Of a stretch of DNA of 64,000 nt, positions 1,205-26,602 are shown piece by piece. The notes below the pieces were generated by a model, which was not told the origin of the DNA, made no database searches, and saw only the letters and a program-made list of their open reading frames with translations. The translations under genes and the position numbers were made by a program. The DNA lies in assembly GCF_964340395.1 (NCBI RefSeq), contig NC_135561.1:18344240-18408239 (forward strand). The letters run 5' to 3'. The number at the start of each line of letters is the position of its first letter. Positions within the stretch are counted from its first letter, which is position 1. This DNA is from Glandiceps talaboti (taxonomy: Eukaryota; Hemichordata; Enteropneusta; Spengelidae).

Positions 1205-1374
1205 GGTGGACCGTTCCCGGAGGTACTGCAATACCAGGTCGATCCGTGGCCAGGACGGAGCAAGCTCCTATTCCATAGCCCGATTGCAAAAATCAGTTTA
1301 ATATCGAGCTGCTCGATGAGCAGCGTATCAGATATTAAGCTGATAAGAACAGATACTACACATGATCTTAGCCA
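1205..1374 (-). ncRNA. U2: U2 snRNA pseudogene lacking nt 1-17
   Basis: U2 copy retaining nt 18-187 on the minus strand. Homology stops at 1374, where the expected 5' segment is replaced by the CR1/L2-like element that fills 1375-3997. It lacks the 5' end and an upstream promoter, so it is a dead copy. The spacing to the copy at 1-183 fits the 1.2-kb unit. Confidence 0.9.
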
Positions 1375-2889
1375 CTTGGTAGATATTCATATTCTGTATG
1401 TAGTGGATGTGTTGAATCTTTGATAATTTTTGTAGCAGTCTTAAACGATTTGAGTTTATACAATGTAGAGTTATCAGATAGTTCGTAGAATTCATTATTA
1501 ACTAATTTTCTGCATATGTTCCTAGGACGGTTTAGATCGTGTTTAAGATAGGTAGGCAGCATATCATAGAATGCAATGTTCGCATAACTGAGGACTGTAT
1601 AAATGGTTGAATTGTAGAACAAAGAAATGACATTCGAGCTAACATTTAATTTCCTCATGGACCTTGCAAAATACAACCTTTTATTTGCTTTTTTGAGCTT
1701 ATTGTCCACATGTTGCGCAAAGGACAATTTATCATCAACCATACAGCCAAGATATATATATATATACTGATGTTCTTTCGACTTGCATATTGTTAATTTC
1801 AACAGGTTGTTTTTCTGCTTTATTCCGTCGGAAGTCAAAAATTAATTCTTTTGTTTTTGGCACATTAAGATCAGGGTAGTTATCTTTACACCAGGTGTTG
1901 ACAAACTCGATACACTCCACATACTCAATGTCATCATCATTTGATATAAATCCGACAACAGCTGTATCATATGCATATTTCTCAATCATCGCGCCATTAT
2001 TGTCCCATGCCAAATCATTTGTGTAAAGTACAAAAAGAACTGGTGACAGCACACAGCCCTGTGGTGCACCTGTATTAACTGTTATTATGTCGGATACACC
2101 ATACTTAGTGCGGACATATTGTGATCTTTCGGTGAGGTAATCTAAGATCCATAATTGCAAGTATGCCGGTACATTGAGTGCATTCAGTTTATTAAGCATT
2201 GGATGTGGCTGGATAGTGTTGAATGCTGAGGAATAATCGATAAATAGAACTCTAGCTGTATTCGATGACTTGGCGTATAGATGCTTAGTAAGGCGATGTA
2301 TTAAAGTACAAATTGCGTCATCAGTTGAACGTCCAAGTATGTATGCGAATTGCAAAGGATCAAAATTATCCTTTACATGTGGCATAAATAATGCTAAACC
2401 AATTCGTTCAAGACATTTAGACAGAATAGATGTGAGGGTTACAGGTCTAAGGTCATTGATAACCTGTGGTAGATCTTTCTTTGGAACAGGTACTATCTCA
2501 CCAATCTTCCAAGATGATGGATATGTGCATGTTGACAACGATAGCTCAAATATATAATGGATTATATAAAATAAACTATCCTTACACTGTTTTAAGAGAT
2601 TACCACTTAGTTTGTCTGGACCTGGTGCTTTGTTCACCTTTATTCCTTTGAGCACTTTACGAACATGTTCTTCGGGTAGCACGAAAGCCTCTTCATCTAC
2701 AGTCCCTACTAATTGTTCCTCGATGTAGTTCTGCTCATTTCGAAAATCAGTGTTATCAAAGCGGGCATAGAATCGATTTAGACGCGCTATTGCACCAGGT
2801 TCAGTCAAAATAGCCGGATATCTACGTTTCTGACCCATACCAGTGAGAACTTTTAGGCCTCTCCATGCATCTTTAGAATTATTAGTCAT
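1368..2889 (-). pseudogene. CR1/L2-like reverse transcriptase with damaged active site
   Basis: Reverse transcriptase of the element at 1375-3997. A 384-codon frame runs 2889-1735 and continues in another frame at 1838-1368, so there is a frameshift near 1770-1840. It overlaps a run of TA repeats that may have slipped. Visible motifs in order: NKAPGPDKLSGNLL, DLRPVTLTSILSK, motif A FIDYSSAFNTI, motif B GAPQGCVLSPVLF, and motif C as KYAYDTA (1966-1977 covers YAYD). The first catalytic Asp of YADD is Tyr, which should abolish polymerase activity. The C-terminal frame has LGCMVDDKLSF and DSTHPLHTEYEYLPSG, typical of CR1/L2 relatives. Confidence is high for RT and moderate for the exact clade. 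Confidence 0.85.
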
Positions 2890-3997
2890 AAATAGGCTCT
2901 CACCTTTATTTTTGTAATCACATTTTGCTTTTCAGATTATATCATTCAACAGGGTTTGTTTCTCGTGATAATTATCTTTACCATATGACTTATGTTTATC
3001 TATAATAGCCTGTCTTACATCAGACGTAACCCATGGCTTGTTATTGGCATACACTTTCACCTGTTTAGTTTGAAAATGTAAATTACTACAAAACGTTATG
3101 TATGAAGTAACTACATCCGTCAATACAATCACATTGCCATCGGCATCCTGTATGAATAAATTCCAGTCTGTTAGATTAAAGCATGTGTTCATTTTATCCA
3201 TACTTTCTTTATCCATTACCACTTTTGTCATTGTTGTTGGTTTGAACTGTTTCACTTTCGGTTTATACTGTGGTGTCATATGAATCATATTGTGATCGCT
3301 GGTTTTCAATAGTTGTTTACATTTGTAGGCTTTCTTTACATTGCAAAAGAATGGGTCTAAAAGTGAATCTTTTCGGGTATTACATGAGACACATTGCTCA
3401 AAACCACGGAGCAGCTGTTTTAAATCATTTACACAGTGATTAGCATCGCCAAAAATAAGATGTAACATATCGGGTTTGTTATTTGAGTTGGTGGTAACGA
3501 CGTCCTGCAATATTTTCATAGCAGCGTCCTTTTTGGCATCCGGTGGAATGTACAGTACAGTTATAAAAATATTAGTAAATTCTCTTGGTAGATAGAATGG
3601 TCTTACTGACACTGAAAGTATTTCAATATCTGGTGTACACACACTGTTCTTTACACATATATATATTATTACACCAACGTTCATTAACATATAGGGCGAC
3701 TCCACCTCCTTTGCTTTTTCCTGATTGAACTGTTCTGTCACCCCTCACCAGATGAAAACCAGTGACATCCATAGCACTGTTCGATATTGAACTTTCAAGC
3801 CAGCTTTCTGTAATACCCAGTATGCATGCCTCGCGATATTCATAGAGGTATTTACAGTTAGCACTTAGTTCGTCCATTTTATTGACAAGCGACCTGGCAT
3901 TGCCAAAAGTTACAGATGGGGCGAATGGTCTATCCCTTCGTTTTCTTGCCTTTACTCTAATCCCAGCTCGTTTCCCTCTATAGTGTTGAGCCTTTCT
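1375..3997 (-). mobile_element. CR1/L2-like non-LTR retrotransposon, 3'-truncated
   Basis: Fragment of a Jockey-superfamily (CR1/L2/Rex-like) element on the minus strand, carrying an endonuclease remnant, the RT and most of the C-terminal domain. It ends at the motif LPSG, where family members usually continue for some tens of residues. Its 3' end is therefore lost, and it abuts U2 nt 18. The other side (about 3998) joins a plus-strand U2 spacer, whereas its 3' neighbour is a minus-strand U2. The flanks are in opposite orientation, so this is not a simple target-primed insertion. Confidence 0.8.
2932..3877 (-). pseudogene. Remnant of CR1/L2-like endonuclease region
   Basis: Upstream ORF2 region of the same element, in two frames (3877-3623 and 3741-2932) that overlap, which implies a frameshift near 3700. 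It contains a GITESWL segment, ALYVNERWCNN, the stretch FITVLYIPPDA and a degraded HLIFGDANHC block, consistent with an apurinic-like endonuclease domain. The N-terminal catalytic part is missing or off the 5' end. The end around 3190-2932 is the linker to the RT. Confidence 0.6.
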
Positions 3998-4345
3998 CGA
4001 GACTTGCTCACATGGTCCCTAGATTTACATGAGCCGGGCAGCTTATTCGAAGGGGATCCTGACGGTTATGTTTCTCCCATATCATTACAAAAAGGTGGAT
4101 TGGGACTCGTCAATGTTGTCCAAAAGTCAAATGCACTTTTTGTCAGTTATACTTTAAAGACAATCTATGACAGACATGTTTCGAACAAATCACTTGTTTA
4201 TGAATCAAATGAGGAAGACGAGAACTTATGTATGAATGTGATGACTGACTATCGTTTCAAACCACTAGTTGGTACGGGTATCCTCAGGCCAGGACTGTTC
4301 TCTCCACAGACTGTGTTTACAATAACGCACATGAGAAATCCCTAA
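3998..4345 (+). pseudogene. RT C-terminal relic in U2 spacer (best-preserved copy)
   Basis: Plus-strand reading frame ending at 4345 that shows LFEGDPDGYVSPISLQKGG, then LGLVNVVQKSNALFVSYTL, then DENLCMNVMTDYRFKPLVG. The KGGLGLVN...K..AL pattern is the conserved segment after the RT core in L1/Tx1 ORF2 proteins. The family C element has the equivalent KGGMGLVDMKQKARALLLS near 31030-31100. There is no RT core here, so it is a relic. The frame is nearly open, either because it is young or because concerted evolution keeps units alike. Confidence 0.7.
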
Positions 4346-4365
4346 TATAGAAAAATAACCAATAA

Positions 4366-4563
4366 TTAAACTTCTATTTCTTTTTCAAATGTCACGTTAT
4401 CTTCCATTTTGGACTTCACAATACAACTTAAAACAGGTACACAAATATATTGATCAACTTTCATAAAATTGTCAGGAGTTCTAATGGTAGCAGATGCCCG
4501 GGTGTAGCAAGGTGTCAATCTGACCAAGCACATTTGCATATCACTATGTAGTCGTTCTTCCAA
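4366..4563 (-). other. Conserved 65-codon antisense ORF across the octamer
   Basis: An open frame starting MEERLHSDMQM and ending FEKEIEV recurs in many units: 20667-20864 on the plus strand, and 21073-21294, 62589-62786 and 63800-63997 on the minus strand. A variant ending FEKEKEV lies at 19455-19652 on the plus strand. It reads away from U2 and overlaps the octamer. I know no protein family for it. Unit-to-unit homogenisation alone could keep it open, so I list it as a conserved ORF of doubtful coding value. Confidence 0.3.
4532..4539 (+). promoter_or_regulatory. Octamer (DSE-like) of U2 gene
   Basis: ATTTGCAT, the octamer, lies 304-311 bp upstream of the U2 start at 4843. The same motif sits at 5739-5746 (for U2 at 6050), 62755-62762 (for 63066) and 63966-63973. 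In the opposite sense it is at 486-493, 15775-15782, 19479-19486 and 20691-20698. A constant position relative to U2 supports a distal enhancer role. The family knowledge comes from vertebrate snRNA genes. Confidence 0.55.
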
Positions 4564-4783
4564 ACAATACCATGGTTACTGGTCATCCAGAAGTGGCCAA
4601 CAGTACCTAGTTGTTATTTTGAATGGATTTTGTTTCCTGCATTTTACATACTTATACATTGAGATATATATAATACTAAAGTCATGTACATTTTCTGAGA
4701 ATAATGCAGATCATTTCCCATGCAGATATTTGATTAAACTTTGGTAAAAAACCTCGAGAATTTACCTTTCCCTTACCTTACCT

Positions 4784-4800
4784 GAAACCGTACTAGGTCT
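4784..4800 (+). promoter_or_regulatory. PSE-like element of U2 gene
   Basis: GAAACCGTACTAGGTCT at -59 to -43 relative to U2. It is almost unchanged in all units that keep their upstream sequence, including 9509-9810 and 63020. No TATA box follows at about -30, as expected for pol II-type snRNA genes. Confidence 0.55.
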
Positions 4801-4842
4801 TTTAACCCGCACATAGGCCACCCCAGAGTACCTTTCACCGTT

Positions 4843-5029
4843 ATCGCTTCTCGGCCTTTTGGCTAAGATCATGTGTAGTATCTGTTCTTATCAGCTTAAT
4901 ATCTGATACGCTGCTCATCGAGCAGCTCGATATTAAACTGATTTTTGCAATCGGGCTATGGAATAGGAGCTTGCTCCGCCCTGGCCACGGATCGACCTGG
5001 TATTGCAGTACCTCCGGGAACGGTCCACC
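4843..5029 (+). ncRNA. U2: U2 snRNA gene
   Basis: Complete 187-nt U2 copy on the plus strand with branch-point segment, Sm-like site and full 3' domain. Both the octamer and the PSE-like block are in place upstream, and a 3'-box-like AATAAAGAATAGAAG lies about 12 nt downstream. It differs from its neighbours by CGCCC instead of CGTCC after GCTTGCTC. It is the first of two direct-repeat units, 1207 bp apart. Good candidate for a transcribed gene. Confidence 0.95.
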
Positions 5030-5035
5030 GTCTTA

Positions 5036-5055
5036 TCGAAATAAAGAATAGAAGT
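5036..5055 (+). terminator. snRNA 3'-box-like element
   Basis: The stretch TCGAAATAAAGAATAGAAG begins about 6 nt after the U2 3' end and is kept after every U2 copy that has its downstream flank. It resembles the metazoan snRNA 3' box (GTTT-N-AAARNNAGA) in its AAAG..TAGA part, with one base of offset. A role in 3'-end processing is inferred. Confidence 0.45.
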
Positions 5056-5165
5056 AATAGTTGAATTTTCTGGTGGACTTGACATTGTTCTTACAAATCA
5101 TTTTGGACGTTAATATTGTTCTATCGCTTTGAAATGTACGGTTGAACTAAAATAACCCTGTCAAT

Positions 5166-5552
5166 GTGTTGTTATGGCAAGAGCTCACTACTTTCACTGT
5201 TTCTAGATCATTTAGCGAGACTTTCTCACATGGTTCCCTAGATCTGCGGGAGCTGGGCAGCTTATTCGAAGGGGATCCTGACGGGTATGTTTTTTCCATT
5301 ACAAAAAAGGACTCGTCAATGTTGTCCAAAAGTCAAATGCACTTTTTGTCAGTTATACTTTAAAGACAATCTATGACAGACATGTTTGGAACAAATCACT
5401 TGTTTAGGAATCAAAGGAGGAAGACGAGAACTTATGTATGAATGTAATGACTGACTATCGTTTCAAACCACTAGTTGGTACGGGTATCCTCAGGCCAGGA
5501 CTGTTCTCTCCACAGACTGCGTTTACAATAACGCACATGAGAAATCCCTAAT
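5166..5552 (+). pseudogene. RT C-terminal relic in U2 spacer, with internal deletion
   Basis: Second plus-strand copy of the spacer relic. The frame reads SLDLRELGSLFEGDPDGYV and then loses the QKGGLGL block through a short deletion, shifting frame near 5300. The downstream part (VMTDYRFKPL) continues in another frame. It carries the same deletion class as 678-1000, so these units are closely related. Confidence 0.6.
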
Positions 5553-6049
5553 ATAGAAATATAAACAATAATTACACTTCTTTTTCTTTTTTCAAATGTC
5601 ACGTTATCCTCCATTTTGGACTTCACAGTACAACTTAAAACAGGTACACAAATATACTGATCAACTTTCATAAAATTGTCAGGATTTCTAATGGTAGCAG
5701 ATGCCCGGATGTAGCAAGGTGTCAATCTGACCAAGCACATTTGCATATCACTATGCAGTCATTCTTCCAAACAATACCATGGTTACTGGTCATCCAGAAG
5801 TGGCCAACAGTACCTAGTTGTTAGTTTGAATGGATTTTGTTTCCTGCATTTTACATACTTATACATTGAGATATATATAATACTAAAGTCATGTACATTT
5901 TCTGAGAATAATGCAGATCATTTCCCATGCTGATATTTGATTAAACTTTGGTAAGAAAGATCGAGAATTTACCTTTCCCTTACCTTACCTGAAACCGTAC
6001 TAGGTCTTTTAACCCGCACATAGGCCACCCCAGAGTACCTTTCACCGTT

Positions 6050-6236
6050 ATCGCTTCTCGGCCTTTTGGCTAAGATCATGTGTAGTATCTGTTCTTATCA
6101 GCTTAATATCTGATACGCTGCTCATCGAGCAGCTCGATATTAAACTGATTTTTGCAATCGGGCTATGGAATAGGAGCTTGCTCCGTCCTGGCCACGGATC
6201 GACCTGGTATTGCATTACCTCCGGGAACGGTCCACC
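6050..6236 (+). ncRNA. U2: U2 snRNA gene, one substitution
   Basis: Complete U2 on the plus strand with octamer at 5739-5746 and PSE-like block in place. The conserved TATTGCAGTACC reads TATTGCATTACC (G to T at 6215), a change in a region that is nearly invariant in U2. This copy may be a variant or a decaying gene. It is followed by a normal 3' box-like stretch, and about 215 bp later the spacer is replaced by the element at 6452-7521. Confidence 0.92.
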
Positions 6237-6451: not shown

Positions 6452-7092
6452 CTAACAAACCTTGTTATTGCTTGGTTCTATCTTTCACAAAGTTGTTGCT
6501 AAGGAAAATAATTCCAGGTTCTTGGAATAATACCACTCCTGTTTTTTTTTCAGGAAACCTCATCCTGATGTAAAGCCTCCCAGAACATTGTGCATAGTCT
6601 ACTCGAAAAACTATTATTCCAAGGCAATTGGTAAACTCTGACTACAAAACAGAATATACGACCAACTCCAACATCACGACATTGTTTATCCAAGGGTAAT
6701 GCAAGTAATACCCCCAAAAGAGACTGGCATTGTATCTGGCAAAATAAGATATATTAGAAAACAATGTGAAGGAATTGTCTTGGAAATGCGTCCATAATAT
6801 TTTGCAAACGAACGCGTAACTTAGTAGATGGAGTCATAGAATAGCAAGTAATTGCCCGAGAGAAAATTGCAAAGAAAACGAATCACGGCACCATCTCTTC
6901 AAAACGTGCTCTGTACCTAATTCACTCTGGTCTTGGGCTGATAATATTATATTTCGTCTGTGCATAGACCCTCCACCAAGGTGGAGGGTCTATGGTCTGT
7001 GTGAACAATTGGAAGTGATAAAATGTGACTAGGATTTATGCTACAGTCTCATCAAATTTCCATTAAAAAATAAATAAATAAATAAATAAATC
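6452..7092 (+). pseudogene. Tx1/L1-type ORF2 C-terminus and 3' end
   Basis: Degenerate 3' end of a Tx1/L1-clade element. With frame changes, 6755-6960 reads NVKELSWKCVHNILQTNA, then RWSHRIASNCPRENCKENES, then RHHLFKTCS. This is the Cys/His motif (C-x4-C...H-x3-C) at the end of L1/Tx1 ORF2 proteins. A perfect 15-bp hairpin (6963-6994) and an (AAAT)n tail (about 7063-7092) follow, as expected for a 3' UTR. It begins abruptly in the U2 spacer at CTAGATCT. An inverted copy is at 14396-15079. Confidence 0.65.
6963..6994 (+). repeat. Perfect hairpin in retroelement 3' UTR
   Basis: CATAGACCCTCCACC, AA, then the exact complement: a 15-bp stem with a 2-nt loop. The identical hairpin is at 14526-14557 in the inverted copy. 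A half copy with one change lies at 16964-16982. It may be a 3'-end recognition structure for the RT, which is an inference. Confidence 0.8.
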
Positions 7093-7719
7093 TAAACATG
7101 ATACCTGCGTTTTGTACCGACCGATCGTAGAATGTAAACTCCCCTGGCCATCATTCGCCGTTTCTAGAATGTATTTTGTGCAATCACAGAATGTACCAAA
7201 ATGTATTAAATGTATTTCGTGCAAGATTTCTGCTTTCTGTCAACAAATGTAAAACATGCAAGATTAAAATGAAGAAAAATATATTGTTAGTCTAGAGTTG
7301 AAATATGTTTGTGTCGAAAACGTGATGTCCAAAGAGTGAAACACCAAACTGACACCATTTTAGCTATTATAACTGGTAGTAAATTCAGTACATGTATAAT
7401 GAAAACCGATGCAATTTCTCTGTGAGAAAGTCTCTGAAAGTTTTCCATAAAAGTTTACACTCGCACATGTTAATAAATTGTTCTGAGACTGTGAAATGTA
7501 TTCTGCATGTGTTTGAAAGTATAATAGTATGTTTTAGCTCAATGACTTTTGATTGATGTCAAATGTAGATTTATTTATATTCAGAGCCAATTCTCTATTT
7601 GTATACACACTTTTATCAGTTGGGAAACATTATAGACTAGGTGTTCAGTTTAACTTCTTGGTTTATTGAAAATAGATATGTTTTAGCATATATCCAGTAT
7701 ATTGATGGTTTATATAATG

Positions 7720-9474: not shown

Positions 9475-9508
9475 TAAAACTTTAAATAATAATAATAATA
9501 ATAATAAT

Positions 9509-9837
9509 ATCACTATGTAGTCTTTCTTCCAAACAATCCCATGGTTACTGGTCATCCAGAAGTGGCCAACAGTACCTAGTTGTTATTTTGACTGGATTTT
9601 GTTTCCTGCTTTTTACATACTTAAACATTGAGATACACATAATACTAAAGTCATTTACATTTTTGGAGAAAATGCAGATCATTTCCCATGAAGATATTTA
9701 ATTAAACTTTGCTACGAAAGATCGAGAATTTACCTTTCCCTTGCCTTACCTGAAACCGTACTAGGTCTTTTAACCCGCACATAGACCACCCCTGAGTACC
9801 TTTCAACGTTATCGCTTCTCGGCCTTTTGGCTAAGAT
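9509..9837 (+). ncRNA. U2: U2 promoter region plus U2 nt 1-27
   Basis: Plus-strand U2 upstream spacer with the PSE-like block and then the first 27 nt of U2 (9811-9837, ending GGCTAAGAT). The gene is interrupted by the family A retroelement that starts at 9838. The octamer has been removed by the element on the left. This is the clearest 5' junction of a Tx1-type element in U2. Confidence 0.9.
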
Positions 9838-10055
9838 TGAAGACTACAGAAGACGTACGTGTCTGAAGGAAGGGACTGATTGACCAGTATCTGAGAAAAG
9901 AAAACAGAGATAAGTAATCAATAATAAAATGTATTTTCAGTTTGCCTTTGACAGTTTTTGAACTACTCTTATTGCCATTTTTAAGGCAACTGAGCAAAAA
10001 CAGGCACTCCCCAATCCGGGTAAAAACTCAATTTCTTTTTCCTTTCCTTTAAACC

Positions 10056-11542
10056 ATGGTCATCAAGAAGGCCAAAGTCTTGAGTATTCTATCTATGGAG
10101 GAAAATGTAACTCCAACGAAGGTCTTTTCTTTTCTTACAGACAATGGGGTAGAAGTAGAACCCCATCTTGAAGCTGTTGAAGGAATAGCAGCGTCGAAGT
10201 ACGACATTACTTTTCGTTCTATTTCTTTAAGAAGAGAATTCTTTACTAAACTAGAAACCCCCCCCCCTCCCTTTACTCTCTACTATATCTTATGAAGATT
10301 TCGTTTTTGTCACGGCATCCTTTGTCGGTAATGATCTTGAGGATTGTTTCGTTTAACACGCGCTTTCACCTTACTGCGAAATATTAGCTGCGCGCAAATG
10401 TGTATACGCTGATTTCCCATCATGTTACAATGGGCTGCGACAGTACAAAGTTAAGCTTCGACGAAACATTCCACCAAAGATCAGAGTCTGTAACCAAAAT
10501 ATATGGTTTTCGTGCGCTGGGCAACCAAAAATTTGTGCAAAATTCAGTGCGGTAAAAGTGGCCATTTTTGCCAAGCAGTGCACGGTTGAAACGTGTTTTA
10601 GATGCCTTGAGCAGGGGCATACTGTCGAAACGTGCACAAAGAAAATAAAGTGTACCATATGTAGTGACGAGGGACACAGCTACAGGGCTTGTCCTCTCTC
10701 CTTTGCTAATAAAGTGTCTATAACGGACAAATGGGTACCAAACTGAAAATGAAAACGACAAAACAAATACAAGCACTGAACCAGACATTGAAACAAACAC
10801 GAACACCGCACAGAACGATAGTCACACAATGGAAACAGCTGACAACCATACAGACAATACACCACAAGAAAAAACAGATGACACAAACCTACCTTTACCA
10901 CCGACACCTGATATCTTCTCTCTTGAAAAGGTCACACCTGCCAGCGGTCCACAAAGAGAGAAACGAACATCATCCGATCTCGAAACCGGCTCTGAGGTGG
11001 AAGAAAACAAAAGACCAAAACCCCCTGAACTTATAAATTCTGAAAACGATTCACAGGAAGAAAACTCCACAAATAACACAGAAACACGATACTCTCCCAT
11101 TTCAGGAGACATTAGTACCTCAACAGAGACAGAGAGATACTATGACAGTCAACAAAATTACACCACACAAACAGACACAGATTTCAACAATAGTGACAAC
11201 GATATATAGTACCAGAATCCTTCGAAAACAGACAGATTAAATCAGCTGTAAGCAAAATGAGAGACTCATTCTTACATAGGTTAAATGAAATAGAAGTAAG
11301 GTGCTGTAAAACACATAAATCTAGCGAGAACTGTCAAACAATACTCACCGGCTGGCCAATGTTGATTGCACACCTACAGAACACACACAATTGCTTAGAC
11401 ACGATTGAGTTACCTTGCCCCATTAGGAGATGCACTTCCAAATCCAAAAACACTTCAGACTGGTTACACAACTGCTGCCACAGACACCCAGACTTCGTCC
11501 TAAATAAAGACACACATTTCCTTGATCATTATTTCTTCAATT
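10056..11542 (+). pseudogene. Family A ORF1 (CCHC nucleocapsid-like), copy 1
   Basis: ORF1 begins at the ATG at 10056 (MVIKKAKVL), placed by comparison with the copies at 21499 and 62054. The first 68 residues are open. A C-homopolymer expansion near 10260 shifts the frame, and TTTCGTTTAA at about 10350 is a nonsense change shared with copies 2 and 3. The middle (about 10520-10695) encodes three CX2CX4HX4C knuckles; the second and third read CFRCLEQGHTVETC and CTICSDEGHSYRAC. The first is damaged here. An acidic Ser/Thr-rich region (10829-11209) and a Cys/His C-terminal domain (LPCPIRRC, HRHPDF) ending YFFN follow. The protein should bind the element RNA. Confidence 0.8.
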
Positions 11543-11602
11543 AATTTTCCCCTCTTCTATCATTAAACACACATGACAGTACCCTCTCTATTATTTCACT
11601 TC

Positions 11603-13256
11603 ATGGCTACCTTGACCATTCTGACCATTAATGTCGATGGCTTGAAGAGTCCTTCAAAAAGGTCGCAAATCTTCAACCATTGCCGCAATAAGTATGATGT
11701 TGTTTTCCTTCAACAAGTTCACATAAATTCAATCAGTGAAGAGAAGCAATGGACAAATGAGTGGGGTGGGAATACCATTTGGAATTTTGGCTCTCCAAGT
11801 AGTAGGGGGGTGGGGGGGTGGGGTGGGAGTCCTTCTCTCCCCGAACACTGAACTCCATCACACCAACGTTAAAAAAGATGACAATGGCAGAGTGATATCG
11901 TGCACTGTCCACATCGATGGAACATCGCTCTCCCTGATCAATATTTATGGCCCAAACATTCCAAATCATCGGCCTCCTTTTTTTTAATTCTTTACATAAC
12001 TTCTTCCAAGGAGGAGACTCTATTCTAATTGGGGGTATTTTAATGGCGTCGAAAAACAATTAGACAAACTAGGAGGCTCCGCTTCCAGTACTTGTAGTTT
12101 TGCAGGGAGTAGGGAGTTGAACCTTCTTACTACAGATTTTAAACTACATGTAGTGGACTCCTGGCGTATTCAACATCCAAACGTCTCAGCATTCACATGG
12201 CGCGTTAAACAGAACACAGTCTCCTCCCGCCTAGATCGCTTCTACTATACATCTTCCCTTAAAACATCCACTTCTATTTTCCCATGCCATCTTTCTGACC
12301 ATGACTACGTTCAAATATCTGTTTTCCTCCCTTCTGTACCTCAGCGTGGTCCAGGGGTGTGGAAGTTCAACATCTCCCTACTTCAGGACCCTACTATCAT
12401 TGATAAACTTCAGCAACATTATAAAAACTGGCAAACACTTAAACCAGGTTTCCAGAACCTATCCGATTGGTGGGATGGTTAAGGGACGTTTTAAGTCTGT
12501 GTTAAAACAATGTGCTGATGAAAAAAAACAACAACACAAAACTCGTCTTCAAACTCGTCTTCAATCCCTCCAAAACGACCTCGCAAAATATACCATCAAG
12601 CTGAATGAAGGTGATAGAACTAATGAAACATTAGGCAATTACCATCTATTAAAAGAGGAAATTAACTCTTTAAACATCAAAAGGCAGCAAGGCACCATGA
12701 TTCGCGCGCGCGTCCGCAGACTTGACCTTTCTGAAAGGTGTACTCGGTATTTTTTCAGTCGCGAGCACAATCGCGGTAGGAAAAAGATCATCACAGCCAT
12801 TCAGGATGGTCAAGGTAAAACTCATCGAACTCAAAAAGAAATTTCAAATACACTCACTAACTTTTACAAAACACTCTTTACTTCTGAACCCGACCTGGAC
12901 AAAAACCAGCAAGAATTTTTCCTTTCTAAAATCACTTCCGTTCTCAAACCTGAACAAAAACAGAGTTTAGAGGGCCCCTAACTAAAACAGAATTATTCAA
13001 CTCACTTACACAAATGGAGAACTGCAAAACACGGGGGGGAGATGGCCTTCCGAAAGAATTTTATCTATCGTGTTGGCACTTCATCGGCGATGACATTACA
13101 AACGTCCTGAATGAAGTGCTTGAACGAGGGGAACTATCAACTTCTCAGCGGAGGAGCGTCATCACCCTCCCCAATAAACAGGTAGACACATCTCTCCAAG
13201 GTAATGAAAATGCACACATGAACCCAAAAAATAAGCGACCTATCTCTCTTCTCAAA
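11603..13256 (+). pseudogene. Family A ORF2: endonuclease and RT N-terminus, copy 1
   Basis: ORF2 starts MATLTILTINVDGLK, an APE-type endonuclease opening. The catalytic Glu motif reads LQQVH instead of LQEVH. Frame shifts occur at the G-run near 11810 and at 12040, and a small deletion hits GGDFN. Later motifs are intact: LVVDSWRI-like, AFTWRVKQNTVSSRLDRFYY and LSDHDYV. The linker (SERCTRYFFSREHNRGRKK) and the RT N-terminal segment (MENCKT.GGDGLPKEFY, NKRPISLL) follow. No RT motif A-C is present. Confidence 0.8.
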
Positions 13257-13969
13257 TAATTTAGATAAGACAGTGGTCACATGTTCGTCTGTCTCTGGAC
13301 AACCATGCACAACGCGTTGTACCGGGTGGGGTGCAATGCAAAACCACTGTAGAGATAAACACAAACAAGACAGTGTTAAAATAAGTTGCCCAAAGGGGAA
13401 GTGTGGAAAATTTGCCAACCTGAAAGAGTGGTTAAACCATCTGTGTAAAAAAACACCCCAGTTTTGTGCTATCGAATGATTGTGAAACACTCGAAGAATA
13501 CTTTGTATAGGTTATTGTCCTTTGGTGACCTTCTCCTCTACTGTGTGTAAAACAATCTGTCTTTTATATCTATTCATGTCTATCCTTTCACTCTGTACCA
13601 TTAACGTCAATGGCTTAAAGAACAATGTTAAGCGCGGTAAATTCTTTCAATTGTGTAGGGACTCAGAATATGATATTGTCTGTGTCCAAGAAGCCCACAT
13701 CAGTTCCAGGAAAGAAATTGAGAATTGGAGTAGGGAGTGGGGCGGACCCGCGTTTTGGAGTTTGGGAACCAATAGCAGTTGCGGGGTGGGAATTTTAATA
13801 TCTCCCAAGTCTAGACTAAGTTTGACCAATGTCACTTCGGATGCTGAGGGCAGAATTTTATCTGGTAACCTTGTTCATGGTGATGGCTTTTCTGCTAGGT
13901 TGTGTAATGTTTACGCTCCTAACAACCCAGCACAGAGAGTACGGTTCTTTGAAAACATTCACGCTTACT
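13257..13969 (+). pseudogene. Family B fragment: ORF1 C-terminus and endonuclease start
   Basis: Starts directly after the family A RT fragment. The first part (13273-13500) is an ORF1 C-terminal Cys/His domain, reading TRCTGWGAMQNHCRDKHK and CPKGKCGKFANLKEWLNHL. ORF2 starts at about 13576 (MSILSLCTINVNGLK) with an intact VCVQEAHIS catalytic segment, WSLGTNSSCGVGILI and LCNVYAPNNPAQR. It is cut at 13966-13969, where the inverted repeat begins. Family B ORF2 differs clearly from family A but shares the site type. Confidence 0.8.
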
Positions 13970-14395
13970 TTCAAACACATGCAGAATACATTTCACAGTC
14001 TCAGAACAATAATTCACATGTGCGAGTGTAAACTTTTATGGAAAACTTTCATAGACTTTCTCACAGAGAAATTGCATCGGTTTTCATTATACATGTACTG
14101 AATTTACTACCAGTTATAATAGCTAAAATGGTGTCAGTTTGGTGTTTCACTCTTTGGACATCACGTTTTCGACACAAACATATTTCAAGTCTAGACTAAT
14201 AATATATTTTTCTTCATTTTAATCTTGCATGTTTTACATTTGTTGACAGAAAGCAGAAGTCTTGCACGAAATACATTTAATACATTTTGGTACATTCTGT
14301 GATTGCACAAAATACATTCTAGAAACAGCGAATGATGGCAAAGGGAGTTTACATTCTACGATCGGTCGGTACAAAACGCAGGTATCATGTTTAGA

Positions 14396-15079
14396 TTTAT
14401 TTATTTATTTATTTACTTTATTTATTTATTCATTTATTTATTTATTTATTTATTTAATAGAAATTTAATGAGACTGTAGTATAAATCCTAGTCACATTTT
14501 ATCACTTCCAATTGCTCACACAGACCATAGACCCTCCACCTTGGTGGAGGGTCTATGCACAGACGAAATATAATATTATCAGCCCAAGACCAGAGTGAAT
14601 TAGGTACAGAGCACGTTTTGAAGAGATGGTGCCGTGTTTCGTTTTCTTTGCAATTTTCACTCGGGCAATTACTTGCTATTCTATGACTCCATCTACTAAG
14701 TTACGCGTTCGTTTGCAAAATATTATGGCCGCATTTTCAAGACAATTCCTTCACATTGTTTTCTAATATATCTTAATGTGTATTTTGCCAGATACAATGC
14801 CAGTCTTTTTTTGGGCATTACTTGCATTACCCTTGGATAAACAATGTCGTGATGTTGGAGTTGGTCGTATATTCTGTTTTGTAGTCAGAGTTTACCAATT
14901 GCCTTGGAATAATAGTTTTTCGAGTAGACTATGCACAATGTTCTGGGAGGCTTTACATCAGGATGAGGTTTCCTGAAAAAACCCGGAGTGGTATTATTCC
15001 AAGAACCTGGGATTATTTTCCTTAGCAACAACTTTGTGAAAGATAGAACCAAGCAATAACAAGGTTTATTAGATCTAGG
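14396..15079 (-). pseudogene. Inverted copy of Tx1/L1 ORF2 C-terminus and 3' end
   Basis: Minus-strand equivalent of 6452-7092 with the same hairpin and a longer tail. The frame at 15085-14885 reads LLRKIIPGSWNNTTPGFFRK and is longer than in the left arm, so this copy keeps a few codons better. The Cys/His motif is also present on the minus strand near 14590-14700, with some changes. Confidence 0.6.
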
Positions 15080-15285: not shown

Positions 15286-15472
15286 GGTGGACCGTTCCCG
15301 GAGGTACTGCAATACCAGGTCGATCCGTGGCCAGGTCGGAGCAAGCTCCTATTCCATAGCCCGATTGCAAAAATCAGTTTAATATCGAGCTGCTCGATGA
15401 GCAGCGTATCAGATATTAAGCTGATAAGAACAGATACTACACATGATCTTAGCCAAAAGGCCGAGAAGCGAT
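15286..15472 (-). ncRNA. U2: U2 snRNA gene
   Basis: Complete 187-nt U2 on the minus strand with octamer (15775-15782) and PSE-like block upstream. The bases just before the start read ATAACAGTGTAAGGTATTC, with a few changes against other units. It shares the GGCCAGGTCGG variant with the copy at 1-183. Potentially active. Confidence 0.94.
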
Positions 15473-15969
15473 AACAGTGTAAGGTATTCTGGGGTGGCCT
15501 ATGTGCGGGTTAAAAGACCTAGTACGGTTTCAGGTAAGGTAAGGGAAAGGTAAATTCTCGATCTTTCTTACCAAAGTTTAATTAAATATCTGCATAGGAA
15601 ATGATCTTCAATTTCTCCGAAAATGTACATGACTTTAGTATTATGTATATCTCAATGTTTAAGCATGTAAAATGCAGGAAACAAAATCCATTCAAACTAA
15701 CAACTAGGTACTGTTGGCCACTTCTGGATGACCAGTAACCATGGTATTGTTTGGAAGAATGACTGCATAGTGATATGCAAATGTACTTGGTCAGATTGAC
15801 ACCTTGCTACATCCGGGCATCTGCTACCATTAGAAATCCTGACAATTTTATGAAAGTTGATCAGTATATTTGTGTACCTGTTTTAAGTTGTATTGTGAAG
15901 TCCAAAATGGAGGATAATGTGACATTTGAAAAAGAAAAAGAAGTGTAATTATTGTTTATTTTTGTATAT

Positions 15970-16290
15970 TATGGATTTCTCATATGCGTTATTGTAAACG
16001 CAGTCTGTGGAGAGAACAGTCCCGGCCTGAGGATACCCGTACCAACTAGTGGTTTGAAACGATAGTCAGTCATCACATTCATACATAAGTTCTCGTCTTC
16101 CTCCTTTGATTCCTAAACAAGTGATTTGTTCGAAACATGTCTGTCATAGATTGTCTTTAAAGTATAACTGACAAAACGTGCATTTGACTTTTGGACAACA
16201 TTGACGAGTCCTTTTTTGTAATGGCCGGAAAAAACATACCCGTCAGGATCCCCTTCGAATAAGCTGCCCGGCTCCCGCAGATCTAGGGAA
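15970..16290 (-). pseudogene. RT C-terminal relic in U2 spacer
   Basis: Minus-strand relic of the same type as 678-1000, with the same loss of the GGLGLVN block and almost the same sequence. This supports a direct duplication of the 1-1374 segment and the 15286-16647 segment. Confidence 0.55.
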
Positions 16291-16494
16291 CCATGTGAGA
16301 AAGTCTCGCTAAATTATCTAGAAACAGTGAAAGTAGTGAGCTCTTGCCATAACAACACATTGACAGGGTTATTTTAGTTCAAACGTACATTTCAAAGCGA
16401 CAGAACAATATTAACGTCCAAAATGATTTGTAAGAACAATGTGAAGTCCACCACAAAATTCAACTATTACTTCTATTCTTTATTTCGATAAGAC

Positions 16495-16647
16495 GGTGGA
16501 CCGTTCCCGGAGGTACTGCAATACCAGGTCGATCCGTGGCCAGGACGGAGCAAGCTCCTATTCCATAGCCCGATTGCAAAAATCAGTTTAATATCGAGCT
16601 GCTCGATGAGCAGCGTATCAGATATTAAGCTGATAAGAACAGATACT
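16495..16647 (-). ncRNA. U2: U2 snRNA pseudogene lacking nt 1-34
   Basis: Retains U2 nt 35-187 on the minus strand. At 16648 the expected GTGT is replaced by an A-rich (minus-strand) junction, reading AAAACAAAAAGA before AGTATCTG. If 16648 onwards is the 3' end of an inserted element, this would be a 3' junction. I cannot confirm that because no RT sequence is seen there. Confidence 0.9.
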
Positions 16648-16989
16648 TCTTTTTGTTTTGAGGAAATTAATAATTAAGGATATATCATTTTTACAACATA
16701 TCTCCTACGGATAAATGATCGTAATATCGACTGGAGTCCTCAGGCAGGCCAGCCACGCTGGTTCGAAGTGCAAGAGGGTGCGACCCCCCTGCCACCTCCA
16801 AATGAGAGTTTAAGGAAGAACAGAGCGGAAATTGAACAAAGATCGAAAAGGCAACTTGCAAAGAAATGTTACATGAATGAAGAAACACAAGTCAAAAAGT
16901 GTATGTGAACGTTTCGTTTCTATTCGTTTATTTCTATTTGACGTGTTATGGGGTGTGTTTATACATAGACCCTACACCAAGGGTTTGTG
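16648..16989. other. Unassigned insert between U2 and family A copy 2
   Basis: 342 bp of unrecognised DNA. The plus strand holds a short open run (EVQEGATPLPPPNESLRKN), and the minus strand has an ORF of 65 codons with no family I know. It ends in a half copy (16964-16982) of the CATAGACCCTCCACC hairpin arm. It may be the remains of a retroelement 3' UTR. Confidence 0.4.
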
Positions 16990-18849
16990 TACCACCTTGA
17001 AGCCGTTGAGAGAATAGCAGCTTCGAAGTACGACATTACTTTCCGTTCTATTTCTTTACGAAGAGAATTCTTTATTAAACTAAAACCCTCCCCTTTCCTT
17101 TCTACTATATCTTCGTATGAAGATTTCGTTTTTGTCACAGCATCTTTTGTCGGTAATGACCTTGAGGATTGTTTCGTTTAACACGCGCTTTCGCCTTACT
17201 GCGAAATATTAGCTGCGCGCAAATGTGTACATACGCTGATTTCCCATCATGTTACAATGGGCTGCGACAGTACAAAGTTAAGCTTCGGTGAAGCATTCCA
17301 CCAAAGGTCAGAGTTTATAACCGAAATATATGGTTTTCGTATGCTGGGCAACCAAAAATTTGTGCAAAATGCGGTAAGGGAGGCCATTTTGCCAAGCAGT
17401 GTACTGTTGAAACGTGTTTTAGATGCCTTGAGCAGGGGCATACTGTCGAAACGTGCACAAAGAAATTAAAGTGTACCATATCATGGATGTATTCCATGAC
17501 CATATGTAGTGACGAGGGACACAGCTACTGGGTTTGCCCTCTCTCCTTTGCTAATAAAGTGTCTATAACGGACAAATGGGTACCAAACTGAAAATGAAAA
17601 CGACAAAACAAAACAAATACAAGCACTGAACCAGACATTGAAACAAACACGAACACCGCACAGGACGATAGTCACACAATGGAAACAGCTGACAACCATA
17701 CAGACAATACACCACAAGAAAAAACAGATCACACAAACTTACCTTTACCACCAACACCTGATATCTTCTCTCTTGAAAAGGTCACACCTACCACCTGTCC
17801 TCAAAGAGAGAAATGAACATCATCCGATCTCGAAACCGACTCTGAGGGGGAAGAAAACAAAAGACCAAAACCCCCTGAACTTATAAATTCTGAAAACGAT
17901 TCACAGGAAGAAAACTAAACAAATAACACAGAAACACGATACTCTCCCATTTCAGGAGACATTAGTACCTCAACAGAGACAGAGAGATACTATGACAGTC
18001 AACAGAATTACACCACACAAACAGACACAGATTCCAGCAATAGAGACTACGATATACCAGAATCCTTCGAAAACAGGCAGATTAAATCAGCTGTAAGTAA
18101 AATGAGAGACTCATGCTTACATAGGTTAAATGAAATAGAAGTAAGGTGCTGTAAAATACATAAATCTAGCGAGAACTGCCAAACAATACTCACCGACTGG
18201 CCAATGCTGATTGCACACCTACAGAACACGCACAATTACTTAGACACCATTGAGTTACCTTGCCCCATTAGGAGATGTACTTCCAAATCCAAAAAAACTT
18301 CAGACTGGTTACACCACTACTGCTACAGACACCCAGACTTCGTCCTAAATAAAGATACACATTTCCTTGATTATTATTTCTTTGATTAATTTTCCCCTCT
18401 TCTATCATCAAACACACATGACAATACCCTCTCTATTATTTCACTTCATGGCTACCTTGACCATTCTGGCCATTAACGTCGATGGCTTGAAGAATCCTTC
18501 AAAAAGGTCGCAAATCTTCAACCATTGCCACAATAGGTATGATGTCGTTTTCCTTCAAGAGGTCCACATAAGTTCAATCGGTGAGGAGGAGCAATGGACA
18601 AATGAGTGGGGTGGGAGTTTTGGCTCTCCAAGTAGTAGGGGGTGGGAGTCCTTTTCTCCCCGAACACTGAACTCCATCACACCAACGTTAAAAAAGATGA
18701 CAATGGCAGAGTGATATCATGCACTGTCCACATCGGTGGAACATCGCTCTCCCTGATCAACATTTACGGCCCAAACATTCCAAATCATCGGCCTCCTTTT
18801 TTTAATTCTTTACATTACTTCTTCCAAGAAGGAGACTCTATTCTAATTG
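16990..18849 (+). mobile_element. Family A element, copy 2, truncated at both ends
   Basis: Begins inside ORF1 (LEAVERIAASKYDITFRSI) and ends inside the endonuclease (SILI), where U2 spacer of the minus-strand unit starts. ORF1 holds the shared nonsense codon (TTTCGTTTAA, about 17180), damaged CCHC knuckles (17360-17540) including a short insert ATCATGGATGTATTCC, and the Cys/His domain (18102-18389). ORF2 (from 18448) keeps the catalytic Glu as VVFLQEVHIS, unlike copies 1 and 3. Frame is lost near 18620. Confidence 0.82.
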
Positions 18850-20384: not shown

Positions 20385-21477
20385 AACGGTGAAAGGTACT
20401 CTGGGGTGGCCTATGTGTGGGTTAAAAGACCTAGTACGGTTTCAGGTAAGGCAAGGGAAAGGTAAATTCTCGAGGTTTCTTACCAAAGTTTAATCAAATA
20501 TCTTCATGGGAAATGATCTGCATTATTCTCAGAAAATGTAATTGACTTTTTTAGTATTATATATATCTCAATGTTTAAGTATGTAAAATGCAGGAAACAA
20601 AATCCATTCAAAATAACAACGACGTACTGTTGGCCACTTCTGGGTGACCAGTAACCATGGTATTGTTTGGAAGAAAGACTACATAGTGATATGCAAATGT
20701 ACTTGGTCAGATTGACACCTTGCTACATCCGGGCATCTGCTACCATTAGAAATCCTGACAATTTTAAGAAAGTTGATCAGTATATTTGTGTACCTGTTTT
20801 AAGTTGTATTGTGAAGTCCAAAATGGAGGATAAGGTGATATTTGAAAAAGAAATAGAAGTGTAATTATTGTTTATTTTTGTATATTATGGATTTCTCATG
20901 TGCGTTATTGTAAACACAGTCTGTGGAGAGAACAGTCCCGGCCTGTACCAACTATTGTTTTGTAAAAGTTAGTGAGTGTATTTGAAATTGGTTGGTAACT
21001 AGTTGGTATGGGGATCCTCAGGGGAATGTGCTCTCCACAGAATGTGTTTACAATAACTCACATGAGAAATCCCTAATATAGAAAAATAAACAATAATTGC
21101 CCTTCTATTTCTTTTTCAAATGTCACGTTATCCTCCATTTTGGACTTCACAATACAACTTAAAACAGGTACACAAATATATTGATCAACTTTCATAAAAT
21201 TGTCAGGAGTTCTAATGGTAGCTGATGCCCGGGTGTAGCAAGGTGTCAATCTGACCGAGTACATTTGCATATCACTATGCAGTATTTCTTCCAAACAATA
21301 CCATGGTTACTGGTCACCTAGAGAACATTACCTAGGCGTTATTTTGAATTGACTTTGTTTTCTGCATTTTACATACTTAAACATTGAGATATCATAATAC
21401 TAAAGTCATTTACATTTTTGGAGAAAATGCAGATCATTTCCCATGCAGATATTTAATTAAACTTTACTAAGAAAGTT
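20385..21477. repeat. Head-to-head fusion of two U2 spacers
   Basis: From 20385 to about 20956 this is the upstream spacer of the minus-strand U2. From about 20990 to 21477 it is the same spacer type in plus orientation, without its U2. Between them is a 33-bp piece (20957-20989) identical to an antisense segment of the family A RT linker (59293-59325). The plus half ends in TACTAAGAAAG and joins family A copy 3 directly in its 5' UTR. Confidence 0.8.
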
Positions 21478-24400
21478 CTTTTTCCTTTCCTTTAAATCAT
21501 GGTCATCAAGAAGGCCAAAGTCTTGAATATTTTATTTAAGGAGGAAAATATACCTCGAACGAAGGTCTTTTCTTTTCTTATAGACAATGGGGTAGAAGTA
21601 GAACCCCATCTTGAAGCTGTTGAAAGAATAGCAGCGTCGAAGTACGACATTACTTTTCGTTCTATTTCTTTAAGAAGAGAATTCTTTACTAAACTAGAAC
21701 CCTCCCCTTTACTTTCTACTATATCTTCGTATGAAGATTTCGTTTTTGTCACGGCATCTTTTGTCGGTAATGATCTTGAGGAATATTTCGTTTAACATGC
21801 GCTTTCGCCTTACTGCGAAATATTAGCTGCGCGCAAATGTGTATACGCTGATTTCCCATCATGTTACAATGGGCTGCGACAGTACAAAGTTAAGCTTCGA
21901 CGAAACATTCCACCAAAGATCAGAGTCTGTAACATATGGTTTTCGTACGCTGGGCAATCCAAAATTTGTGCAAAATGCAGTAAGGGAGGCCATTTTGCCA
22001 AGCAGTGCACTGTTGAAACGTGTTTTAGATGCCTTGAGCAGGGGCATACTGTCGAAACGTGCACAAAGAAAATAAAGTGTACCATATGTAGTGACGAGGG
22101 ACACAGCTACAGGGCTTGTCATCTCTCCTTTGCTAATAAAGTGTCTATAACGGACAAATGGGTACCAATCCCCCCCCAACTGTGCAAACTGAAAATGAAA
22201 ACAACAAAACAAATACAAGCACTAAACCAGACATTGAAACAAACACGAACACCGCACAGGACGATAGTCACACAATGGAAACAGCTGACAACCATACAGA
22301 CAATACACCACAAGAAAAAACAGATGACACAAACTTACTTTTACCACTGACACCTGATATCTTCTCTCTTGAAAAGGTCACACCTACCACCGGTCCACAA
22401 AGAGAGAAACGAACATCATCCGATCTCGAAAACGACTCTGAGGGGGAAGAAAACAATAGACCAAAACCCCCTGAACTTATAAATTCTGAAAACGATTCAC
22501 AGGAAGAAAACTCCACAAATAACACAGAAACACGATACTCTCCCATTTCAGGAGACATTAGTACCTCAACAGAGACAGACAGATACTATGACAGTCAACA
22601 GAATTACACCACACAAACAGACACAGATTCCAACAATAGTGACTACGATATACCAGAATCCTTCGAAAACAGACAGATTAAATCAGCTGTAAGTAAAATG
22701 AGAGACTCATGCTTACATAGGTTAAATGAAATAGAAGTAAGGTGCTGTAAAATGCATAAATCTAGCGAGAACTGTCAAACAATACTCACCGGCTGGCCAA
22801 TGCTGATTGCACACCTACAGAACACACACAATTGCTTAGACACGATTGAGTTACCTTGCCCCATTAGGAGATGCACTTCCAAATCCAAAAACACTTCAGA
22901 CTGGCTACACCACTGCTGCCACAGACACACAGACTTACATTTACTTGATTATTATTTTTTTGATTAAATTTCCCCCTCTTCTATCATTAAACACACATGA
23001 CAGTACCCTCTCTATTATTTCACTTCATGGCTACCTTGACCATTCTGACCATTAACGTCGATGGCTTGAAGAATACTTCAAAAAGGTCGCAAATCTTCAA
23101 CCATTGCCGCAATAAGTATGATGTTGTTTTCCTTCAACAAGTTCACATAAATTCAATCAGTGAAGAGAAGCAATGGACAAATGAGTGGGGTGGAATACCA
23201 TTTGGAATTTTGGCTCTCCAAGTAGTAGGGGGGTGGGAGTCCTTTTCTCCCCGAACACTGAACTCCATCACATCAACGTTAAAAAATATGACAATGGCAG
23301 AGTGATATCATGCACTGTCCACATCGGTGGAACATCGCTCTCCCTGATCAATATTTATGGCTCAAACATTCCAAATCATCGGCCTCCTTTCTTTAATTCT
23401 TTACATAACTTCTTTCAAGGAGGAGACTCTATTCTAATTGGGGGTGATTTTAATTGCGTCGAAAAACAATTAGACAAACTAGGAGGCTCCGCTTCCAGTA
23501 CTTATAGTTTTGCAGGGAGTAGGGAGTTGAACCTTCTTACTACAGATTTTAAACTAGTGGACTCCAGTGGCGTATTCAACATCCAAACGTCTCAGCATTC
23601 ACATGGCGCGATAAACAGAACACGGTCTCCTCCCGCCTAGATCGCTTCTACTATACATCTTCCCTTAAAACATCCACTTCTATTTTCCCATGCCATCTTT
23701 CTGACCACGACTACGTTCAAATCTCTGTTTTCCTCCCTTCTGTATCTCAGCGTGGTCCAGGGGTGTGGAAGTTCAACATCTCCCTACTTCAGGACCCTAC
23801 TATCATTGATAAACTTCAGCAACATTATACAAACTGACAAACACTTAAACCAGGTTTCCAGAACCTATCCGATTGGTGGGATATGGTTAAGGGCCGTTTT
23901 AAGTCTGTGTTAAAACAATGTGCTAATGAAAAAACAAAACAACTCAAAACTTCAATCCCTCCAAAACGACCTCGCAAAATATACCATCAAGCTGAATGAA
24001 GGTGATAGAATGAATGAAACATTAGGCAATTACCATCTATTAAAAGAGGAAATTAACTCTTTAAACATCAAAAGGCAGCAAGGCACCATGATTCGCGCGG
24101 GCGTCCGCAGACTTGACCTTTCTGAAAGGTGTACTCGGTATTTTTTCAGTCGCGAGCACAATCGCGGTAGGAAAAAGATCATCACAGCCATTCAGGATGG
24201 TCAAGGTAAAACTCATCGAACTCAAAAAGAAATTTCAAATACACTCACTAACTTTTACAAAACACTCTTTACTTCTGAACCCGACCTGGACAAAAACCAA
24301 CAAGAATTTTTCCTTTCTAAAATCACTTCCGTTCTCAAACCTGAACAAAAACAGAGTTTAGAGGGCCCCCTAACTAAAACAGAATTATTCAACTCACTTA

Positions 24401-24648
24401 CACAAATGGAAAACTGCAAAACACCGGGGGGAGATGGTCTCCCGAAAGAATTTTATCTATCGGGTTGGCACTTCATCGGCGATGACATTACAAACGTCCT
24501 GAATGAAGTGCTTGAACGAGGGGAACTATCAACTTCTCAGGGGAGGAGCGTCATCACCCTCCTCAATAAACAGGTAAACACATCTTTCCCAGGTAATGAA
24601 AATGCACACATGAACCCAAAAAATAAGCGACCTATCTCTCTTCTCAAA
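21478..24648 (+). mobile_element. Family A element, copy 3
   Basis: Starts in the late 5' UTR and runs to the same RT breakpoint (KNKRPISLLK) as copy 1, followed by the same family B join. Copies 1 and 3 with their B parts are therefore a duplicated composite. ORF1: 21499-21795 open, the shared nonsense codon near 21793, knuckles 21955-22125, acidic region and Cys/His domain 22158-22967. ORF2: EN from 23027 with LQQVH in place of LQEVH, GGDFN intact (SILIGGDFNCVEKQLDKLGG), RT linker 23920-24651. Confidence 0.85.
22158..22967 (+). pseudogene. Family A ORF1 distal half, copy 3 (longest open frame)
   Basis: A 269-codon frame covering the part of ORF1 after the zinc knuckles. It has an acidic, Ser/Thr/Asn-rich segment with PPELINSENDSQEENSTNN, then a compact Cys/His domain: VRCCKMHKSSENCQTIL, GWPMLIAHLQNTHNC, ELPCPIRRC and WLHHCCHRH. 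The paired Cys and His suggest a C2H2-like nucleic-acid-binding fold. In families B and C the corresponding C-terminal domain is recognisable but diverged. Confidence 0.75.
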
Positions 24649-24651
24649 TAA
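23920..24651 (+). pseudogene. Family A ORF2 linker and RT N-terminus, copy 3
   Basis: A 243-codon frame with LNEGDRMNETLGNYHLLKEE, SLNIKRQQGTMIRAGVRRL, the conserved SERCTRYFFSREHNRGRKK, EGPLTKTELFNSLTQMENCK and GGDGLPKEFY. It ends at NKRPISLLK followed by a stop. This is the region between endonuclease and RT in L1/Tx1 proteins plus the first RT block. The RT catalytic part is absent. Confidence 0.8.
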
Positions 24652-26542
24652 TTTAGATAAGACAGTAGTCACATGTTCGTCTGTCTCTGGACAACCATGC
24701 ACAATGCGTTGTACCGGGTGGGGTGCAATGCAAAACCACTGTAGAGATAAACACAAACAAGACAGTGTTAAAATAAGTTGCCCAAAGGGGAAGTGTGGAA
24801 AATTTGCCAACCCGAAAGAGTGGTTAAACCATCTGTGTAAAAAACACCCCAGTTTTGTGCAATCGAATGATTGTGAAACACTCGAAGAATACTTTGTATA
24901 GGTTATTGTCCTTTGGTGACCTTCTCCTCTACTATGTGTAAAACAATCTGTCTTTTATACCTATTCATGTCTATCCTTTCACTCTGTACCATTAATGTCA
25001 ATGGCTTAAAGAACAATGTTAAGCGCGGTAAATTCTTTCAATTGTGTAGGGACTCAGAATATGATATTGTCTGTGTCCAAGAAGCCCACATCAGTTCCCG
25101 GAAAGAAATTGAGAATTGGAGTAGGGAGTGGGGCGGACCCGCATTTTGGAGTTTGGGAACCAATAGCAGTTGTGGGGTGGGAATTTTAATATCTCCCAAG
25201 TCTAGACTAAGTTTGACCAATGTCACTTCGGATGCTGAGGGGATAATTTTATCTGGTAACCTTGTTCATGTGATGGTTTTTCTGCTAGGTTGTGTAATGT
25301 TTATGCTCCTAACAACCCAGCACAGAGAGTACGGTTACGTTCTTTGAAAACATTCACGCTTACATTGGCACAACCAGGTGGGGACTTCAATTGTGTACAT
25401 TGGGATATGGATCGTTTTGGGGGAGCACCCTCAAATACTTCATGTTTTATAGGGTCAAATACTTTGAGGAGCGTATGCAACGACTACCAATTGGTTGATA
25501 CTTGGCATAAACAAAATAAGTCCGGTAGACAATATACGTGGCGGAGAGCTGATGGCAAAATCGGTAGTCGGTTTGACTGTTGGTACACGTCTCTTGTCAA
25601 CTGTAGTATTTCTCCATGCGCTCTTTCCGATCATGACTTTCTAACACTGAGTTTTCCTCTTCAGTGTCCATCTCCACACGGTCCAGGCCTGTGGAAGTGT
25701 AATAGCGCCAGAATTGGTGACCCTGTTTTCCAGGAATATGGGAGACTGGGAAACCTTGAAATCGGGGTTCGATACCCTGGGAGAGTGGTGGGAAAAGGTA
25801 AAGCAGCGCATACAAGTCATTGTTAAACAACATTGCAAAGCATATAGGCAAAAAGCCAATGGTACATACAAAACACTCATCGATAAACTATCTGACCTGT
25901 CATAAAAAATCAATGCGGTAGATAGTTCCCCAGATTTGTTCGATGAATATCAAAAGACAACAGATGAGATTAATAACATTCTTGCTGAAAGGTATAAAGG
26001 CGCCCAAGTCAGATCAAGGGTGAAAGTACTCAATAATGATGAAATGCCTACAAGGTTTTTCTTGGCCAAAGAGCAGCGTAGGGGGAAAAAGAAAACGATT
26101 GAAAAAATGTTAGATGAGAAAGGGACAATTGAAAGTGACCCCCAAAAATTGTAGGTATTGTTAGGAACTTCTACGAAAATTTATTTTCCAAAAAAGAAGT
26201 GTTAGATTCGTCGACATAAGATTTTTTCCTCAACCATATTGAGTCAAAACTGTCGAGTGAAGAGAGGGAAAAGTTGGAAGCACCCCCTCACGGTTGAAGA
26301 GCTTCGCCTTGCAATCAATGATATGCCCAACAACAAATCCCCTGGAAGTGACAGGCTGACTGTCGAGTTTTACAAATCATCATGGGATTGGGTGGGTACG
26401 CACTTACGGGATGTGTTTCTAGACTGTTTCGAATTTAAAAAGTTGGGAAAGTTTCAGCGTTTGGGTGTAATAACCCTTTTGAATAAAGAGAGCCGCACAG
26501 CGAATGACGACTTAAAAGTCGAAAATAAACGCCCCATTTCAT
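24649..26542 (+). pseudogene. Family B fragment: ORF1 end, endonuclease, RT start
   Basis: Longer copy of the family B part. ORF1 C-terminal Cys/His domain at about 24690-24901 (CRDKHK, CPKGKCGKFANPKEWLNHL). ORF2 from about 24967: CTINVNGLK, VCVQEAHIS, NVYAPNNPAQR (frameshift near 25265), GGDFNCVHWDMDRFGG, RQYTWRRADGKIGSRFD, LSDHDFL. Linker frames follow at 25936-26154. The RT N-terminal block (26239-26545) has NKSPGSDRLTVEFYKSSWDW and KVENKRPISL and then breaks into U2 promoter sequence. Several frameshifts, no RT core. Confidence 0.82.
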
Positions 26543-26602
26543 TGCACATAGGCCACCCCAGAGTACCTTTCACCGTTATCGCTTCTCGGCCTTTTGGCTA
26601 AG
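26543..26602 (+). ncRNA. U2: U2 proximal flank plus U2 nt 1-25
   Basis: The last 35 bp before U2 (CACATAGGCCACCCCAGAG...) and U2 nt 1-25 (26578-26602, ending TTGGCTAAG). The PSE-like block is gone. Family C starts at 26603. This is the second U2/retroelement 5' junction, two nucleotides from that of family A. Confidence 0.9.

Follow-up and report, generated by a model that had tools for sequence, protein, structure and literature searches.

The window, meaning the whole stretch of 64,000 nucleotides analyzed here (C14:18344240-18408239, in a genome of 590 Mb and 47 contigs), lies inside an array of U2 snRNA genes of about 75 kb. Positions are given in window coordinates, so that negative values and values above 64,000 fall outside the window; in these terms, the array extends from -218 to 75129. 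The U2 gene of the window is 191 nt long (Rfam match). The array comprises 13 full-length U2 copies, one of them without the normal upstream region, and 6 broken copies. Its orientation flips six times within 75 kb, and, besides the breaks in the gene, its units are also broken at many spacer positions. A near-perfect palindrome at 20977/20998 is found among the orientation switches. The inverted joint 62568/62574 takes away the normal upstream region of one full-length U2, and a non-U2 segment of about 1.1 kb follows the same spacer position, +404, in three places (6454-7521, 13966-15070, and -1323 to -219).

Outside the array, C1, C5 (two), C7, C12, and C19 carry six full-length U2 genes whose flanks differ from those of the array, while C23 has one array-type copy. 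In addition, there are three short decayed fragments, on C7 (nt 4-41), C17 (nt 5-49), and C12 (nt 97-187); none of these limits, which are match ends rather than mapped joints, lies within nt 17-35. A search with GGCCTTTTGGCTAAGAT, allowing one mismatch, returned three matches outside the known U2 copies (C2, C5, and C7). The match on C7 is the decayed nt 4-41 fragment, and those on C2 and C5 extend over 17-18 nt only. The U2 pattern gave no match to viral_contigs.

The U2 pieces of the window that are discussed below are the following:

1201..1374, minus strand: U2 fragment, nt 18-191 (blastn, cmscan)
9507..9837, plus strand: U2 spacer from -305, followed by U2 nt 1-27
16491..16647, minus strand: U2 fragment, nt 35-191 (blastn, cmscan)
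26544..26602, plus strand: U2 from -34 to nt 25, with a Keno-type element on either side
62374..62564, minus strand: full-length U2, upstream region replaced at -4 by inverted spacer (blast and joint view)

The interruption of U2 at 1374, 9837, 16647, and 26602, as given in the original prediction, is confirmed by blastn and cmscan at all four positions. The retained parts are nt 1-27 at 9837, nt 35-191 at 16647, nt 1-25 at 26602 (or 1-29 if one mismatch is allowed), and nt 18-191 at 1374. The last joint had been placed at nt 17/18; its position is ambiguous from 17/18 to 20/21, because TGG is common to U2 nt 18-20 and the partner sequence. It had also been claimed that all broken copies break within nt 17-35, which is true of the four in the window. 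However, the array extends beyond the window and contains two further broken copies, one at 73236 that retains nt 1-27 (27/28) and one at 69154 that retains nt 1-50 (50/51). Consequently, five of the six breaks, and not all of them, lie in nt 17-35. For four points placed uniformly in the gene, a span of 17 nt or less has a probability of P = 0.0028.

The four breaks are not clearly separate hits, since the flanks of two of them, 1-1357 (1374) and 15290-16647 (16647), share 99.5% identity across 1358 bp, whereas other comparable units are 92-98% identical. Such flanks may mean that the breaks at 1374 and 16647 descend from one damaged ancestral copy. This is possible but rather doubtful, as the two differ in breakpoint and in partner, and whole-unit gene conversion could yield the same identity.

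The sequences joined to U2 include two Keno-type elements, termed KA and KB:

1375..3997, minus strand: LINE fragment taken to be CR1/L2-like, with endonuclease and RT coding, 3'-truncated (RVT_1 match)
9838..13255, plus strand: KA, with 5'UTR, ORF1, endonuclease, and RT start, 3'-truncated
16648..16990, no strand assigned: segment X, with a U2 fragment on one side and an inverted piece of KA on the other
16992..18849, plus strand: internal KA piece, in an orientation opposite to that of the flanking U2 copies
21473..25366, plus strand: 5'-truncated copy of KA that meets U2 spacer at about -90 and is followed by a KB-like piece
26603..31930, plus strand: decayed KB element with 5'UTR, ORF1, APE-type endonuclease, RT, and a C-terminal region; its 3' end is placed approximately
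58679..62270, minus strand: KA copy that meets U2 spacer at about -329

Both elements lie within U2 snRNA genes, in the same direction as Keno, and code for an APE-type endonuclease and RT; the name is based on these features rather than on an RT tree. An Exo_endo_phos profile match at 13486-14031 scores 25.5 bits, and that of KB (28384-28854) scores 23.5 bits, which is under the cut-off of 24.5. In tblastn comparisons, the endonuclease and RT of KB are similar to those of an element at 43349-45832. Utopia, as described in PMC4640811, shares the target gene and the 3' site. It differs in having a restriction-like endonuclease and no APE domain, whereas an APE-type domain is present in KB. Two of the KA copies are composite (13255-14031 and 24650-25366): their RT ends at the same point, and they run from there into the end of a KB-like ORF1 and endonuclease. 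Unlike these, the KA copy at 73236 runs on into RT.

Half of the six breaks in the array are 5' junctions of Keno-type elements. The 5' sequence of KA begins directly after U2 nt 27 at both 9837 and 73236, and the 5'UTR and ORF1 of KB begin after nt 25 at 26602, the one KB 5' junction observed. The two KA copies are 93.9% identical in their KA parts and 91.0% identical in their U2 flanks, and the flank at 9837 is closer (96.7%) to another unit. On these comparisons, independent insertion of the two appears likelier than duplication, although gene conversion of the flanks could mislead.

Keno and Utopia 3' junctions are placed at U2 nt 38/39 in PMC4640811 and PMC6136364. The bottom-strand site is taken here from that literature, because none of the 28 genome matches to U2 is a 3' part starting at nt 39. 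In this respect the copies here may differ from Keno as published; one match starts at nt 35 and has segment X as its partner. Given three 5' junctions, the lack of an nt 39 start among these matches suggests that the 3' halves of the Keno-interrupted copies seem to have been lost. If the 5' junction falls at nt 25-27 and the 3' junction at 38/39, each insertion would delete about 11-13 bp of U2. The two matching full-length KA junctions at nt 27/28 thus imply a short target-site deletion, which would be a second difference from Keno. A comparable case is described in PMC2718515 for R1 of the Drosophila melanogaster group, where the top strand is cut upstream of the bottom-strand site and a 9 bp target deletion results; the deletion in U2 resembles that of some R1 elements. 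R1 and R2 differ from the present elements in their target, which is 28S rDNA, and in belonging to separate lineages. The same source describes 5'-truncated R2 copies that can have upstream deletions and microhomology of 1-5 nt. Two other KA copies, which meet the U2 spacer near -90 and near -329, look as expected for copies with upstream deletions.

The KA 5' region has four matches in the genome, every one in this array, and the KB 3' region is single-copy. Similarity to the ORF1 protein is found at 13 places, 7 in the array and 6 outside it, and three of the latter lie within 3.3 kb of a full-length U2 on C19. At C19:11446075-11449544, decayed pieces of a Keno-type ORF1 and RT are located just downstream of a full-length dispersed U2.

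The break at 16647 is the sole joint within nt 25-39 that is not a Keno 5' junction, and at nt 34/35 it lies 4 nt from the published 3' junction. It may itself be a Keno 3' junction, produced when KA inserted with its 5' part inverted and with an upstream deletion, in which case segment X would be the 3'UTR. An inverted 5' part of an insertion is known from twin priming of L1. U2 lies on both sides of the insert on one strand, the pieces follow each other in the order upstream unit, inverted KA piece, X, and U2 from nt 35, and other KA copies are likewise deleted upstream. Segment X has three diverged relatives elsewhere in the genome (75-82%). About 1.8 kb upstream of one of them, on C7, a decayed sequence matches the C-terminal region of KB over 41 residues, which hints weakly at a KA 3'UTR. 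However, the hint is a single short match containing stop codons, the stretches examined near the other two relatives contain no Keno coding sequence, and X is unlike any known Keno 3' end, showing no similarity to KB or to the element at 43349. A Keno 3' junction at 16647 is a serious candidate that falls a little short of an even chance. Segment X was also considered as protein-coding, but it matched no family in Pfam with E values of up to 5 and gave no PDB match below E 0.9.

The partner at 1374 is the window's one clearly unrelated sequence joined to a cut U2. We take it to be CR1/L2-like by its clade, and it gives an RVT_1 match. The family is young, with 41 genome matches listed and a best identity of 98%. 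In all 11 relatives examined from these 41 matches, the sequence runs on with TGGTC beyond the joint and reaches a TTA-repeat tail; the fragment at 1374 is therefore 3'-truncated. The expectation that this partner lacks its own 3' end is thus borne out. Its other end (3998) joins U2 spacer at -834 in the opposite orientation, so that the fragment sits at one of the six orientation switches. The cut at 1374 looks like an ordinary rearrangement.

Microhomology of 3-4 nt is present at three of the four joints viewed (TGG at 1374, TTCA at 62325, and TTG at 18847), while the joint at 62568 has none and contains 3 extra nt. Alternative end joining or template switching would be expected to leave such a pattern. 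It is very improbable that the breaks are an assembly artefact. Inverted repeats and tandem arrays are error-prone in assembly, but divergence of about 2-12% between the inverted copies shows that they did not arise as simple fold-back chimeras.

The original prediction went further and proposed a recurrent break site, perhaps arising where the Keno endonuclease nicks U2 and the ends are then joined to other DNA. That the site is marked by the U2-specific element is correct: Keno 5' junctions at nt 25-27 make up three of the breaks, and another lies close to 38/39. These are taken as ordinary target-primed insertion and not as end joining. The step stressed in the prediction, in which a nick is end-joined to unrelated DNA, has two of the three remaining copies against it. 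Simple joining of ends cut within nt 25-39 would lose one side of that interval, and the copies at 1374 and 69154 retain all of it; the unrelated joint leaves the Keno target whole. For the array as a whole, 20 distinct unit breakpoints were compiled by hand from blast ends, the +404 joint being entered a single time although it occurs in three copies. Of these 20, six fall inside the U2 gene. Without the three Keno 5' junctions, the gene holds 3 of 17 breakpoints, against 2.7 expected by length (P = 0.52). Two of these three, at nt 17 and 34, are inside nt 17-35, and the third, at nt 50, is outside. A span like theirs is unremarkable for three points placed at random (P = 0.083). In favor of the proposal, none of the three is more than 25 nt away from nt 38/39 (P = 0.031, with the window chosen post hoc), and R2 in Drosophila rDNA (PMC11700107) offers a precedent for element-made breaks reshaping the target array. 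Taken together, end joining of Keno breaks is unlikely as a source of these joints, and three joints are too few to settle the case against it.

A broader form of this idea is equally unlikely. The Keno endonuclease might destabilize the U2 array as R2 does rDNA, with cuts near nt 25-39 starting recombination and template switching, by which the site is resected or copied past and the joints at nt 17, 34, and 50 are left together with the six switches. If true, reshaping of a host array by its site-specific retrotransposon would occur in U2 as well as in rDNA, making U2 the second such system.

Ordinary Keno insertion plus separate rearrangements, two processes acting in one U2 array, is most probably the correct explanation. 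Keno-type retrotransposons would insert into U2 by target-primed reverse transcription, with a presumed priming step, and their full-length 5' ends would join U2 after nt 25-27. Insertion would account for 9837, 26602, and 73236, which are seen as 5' junctions, and possibly for 16647 as a 3' junction. Heavy rearrangement of the array, with its six switches, would have produced the joints to the CR1/L2-like fragment at 1374 and to the antisense interior of KA at 69154. From the sequence comparisons, the remaining joints appear better explained by rearrangement of an unstable array than by repaired Keno breaks. The clustering, tempting as a break hotspot, mostly marks where retrotransposons of a known U2-targeting class insert. 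As the cuts near the start of the gene are mainly due to Keno insertion and the unrelated cut resembles ordinary rearrangement, no new breakage mechanism is needed. The predicted observation is thus confirmed in part, and its interpretation is supported in part.

Other features of the window lie apart from the broken U2 copies. A reading frame at 37148-37690 is reminiscent of Crypton-type tyrosine recombinases in their C-terminal part; a Pfam search of this frame gave no match. The element at 43349-45832 is Tx1-like, its endonuclease and RT reading frames look intact, and it is flanked by related minisatellites of about 27 bp (39343-41616 and 45818-46676). A 79 bp tandem repeat of about 14 copies occupies 48907-49985.
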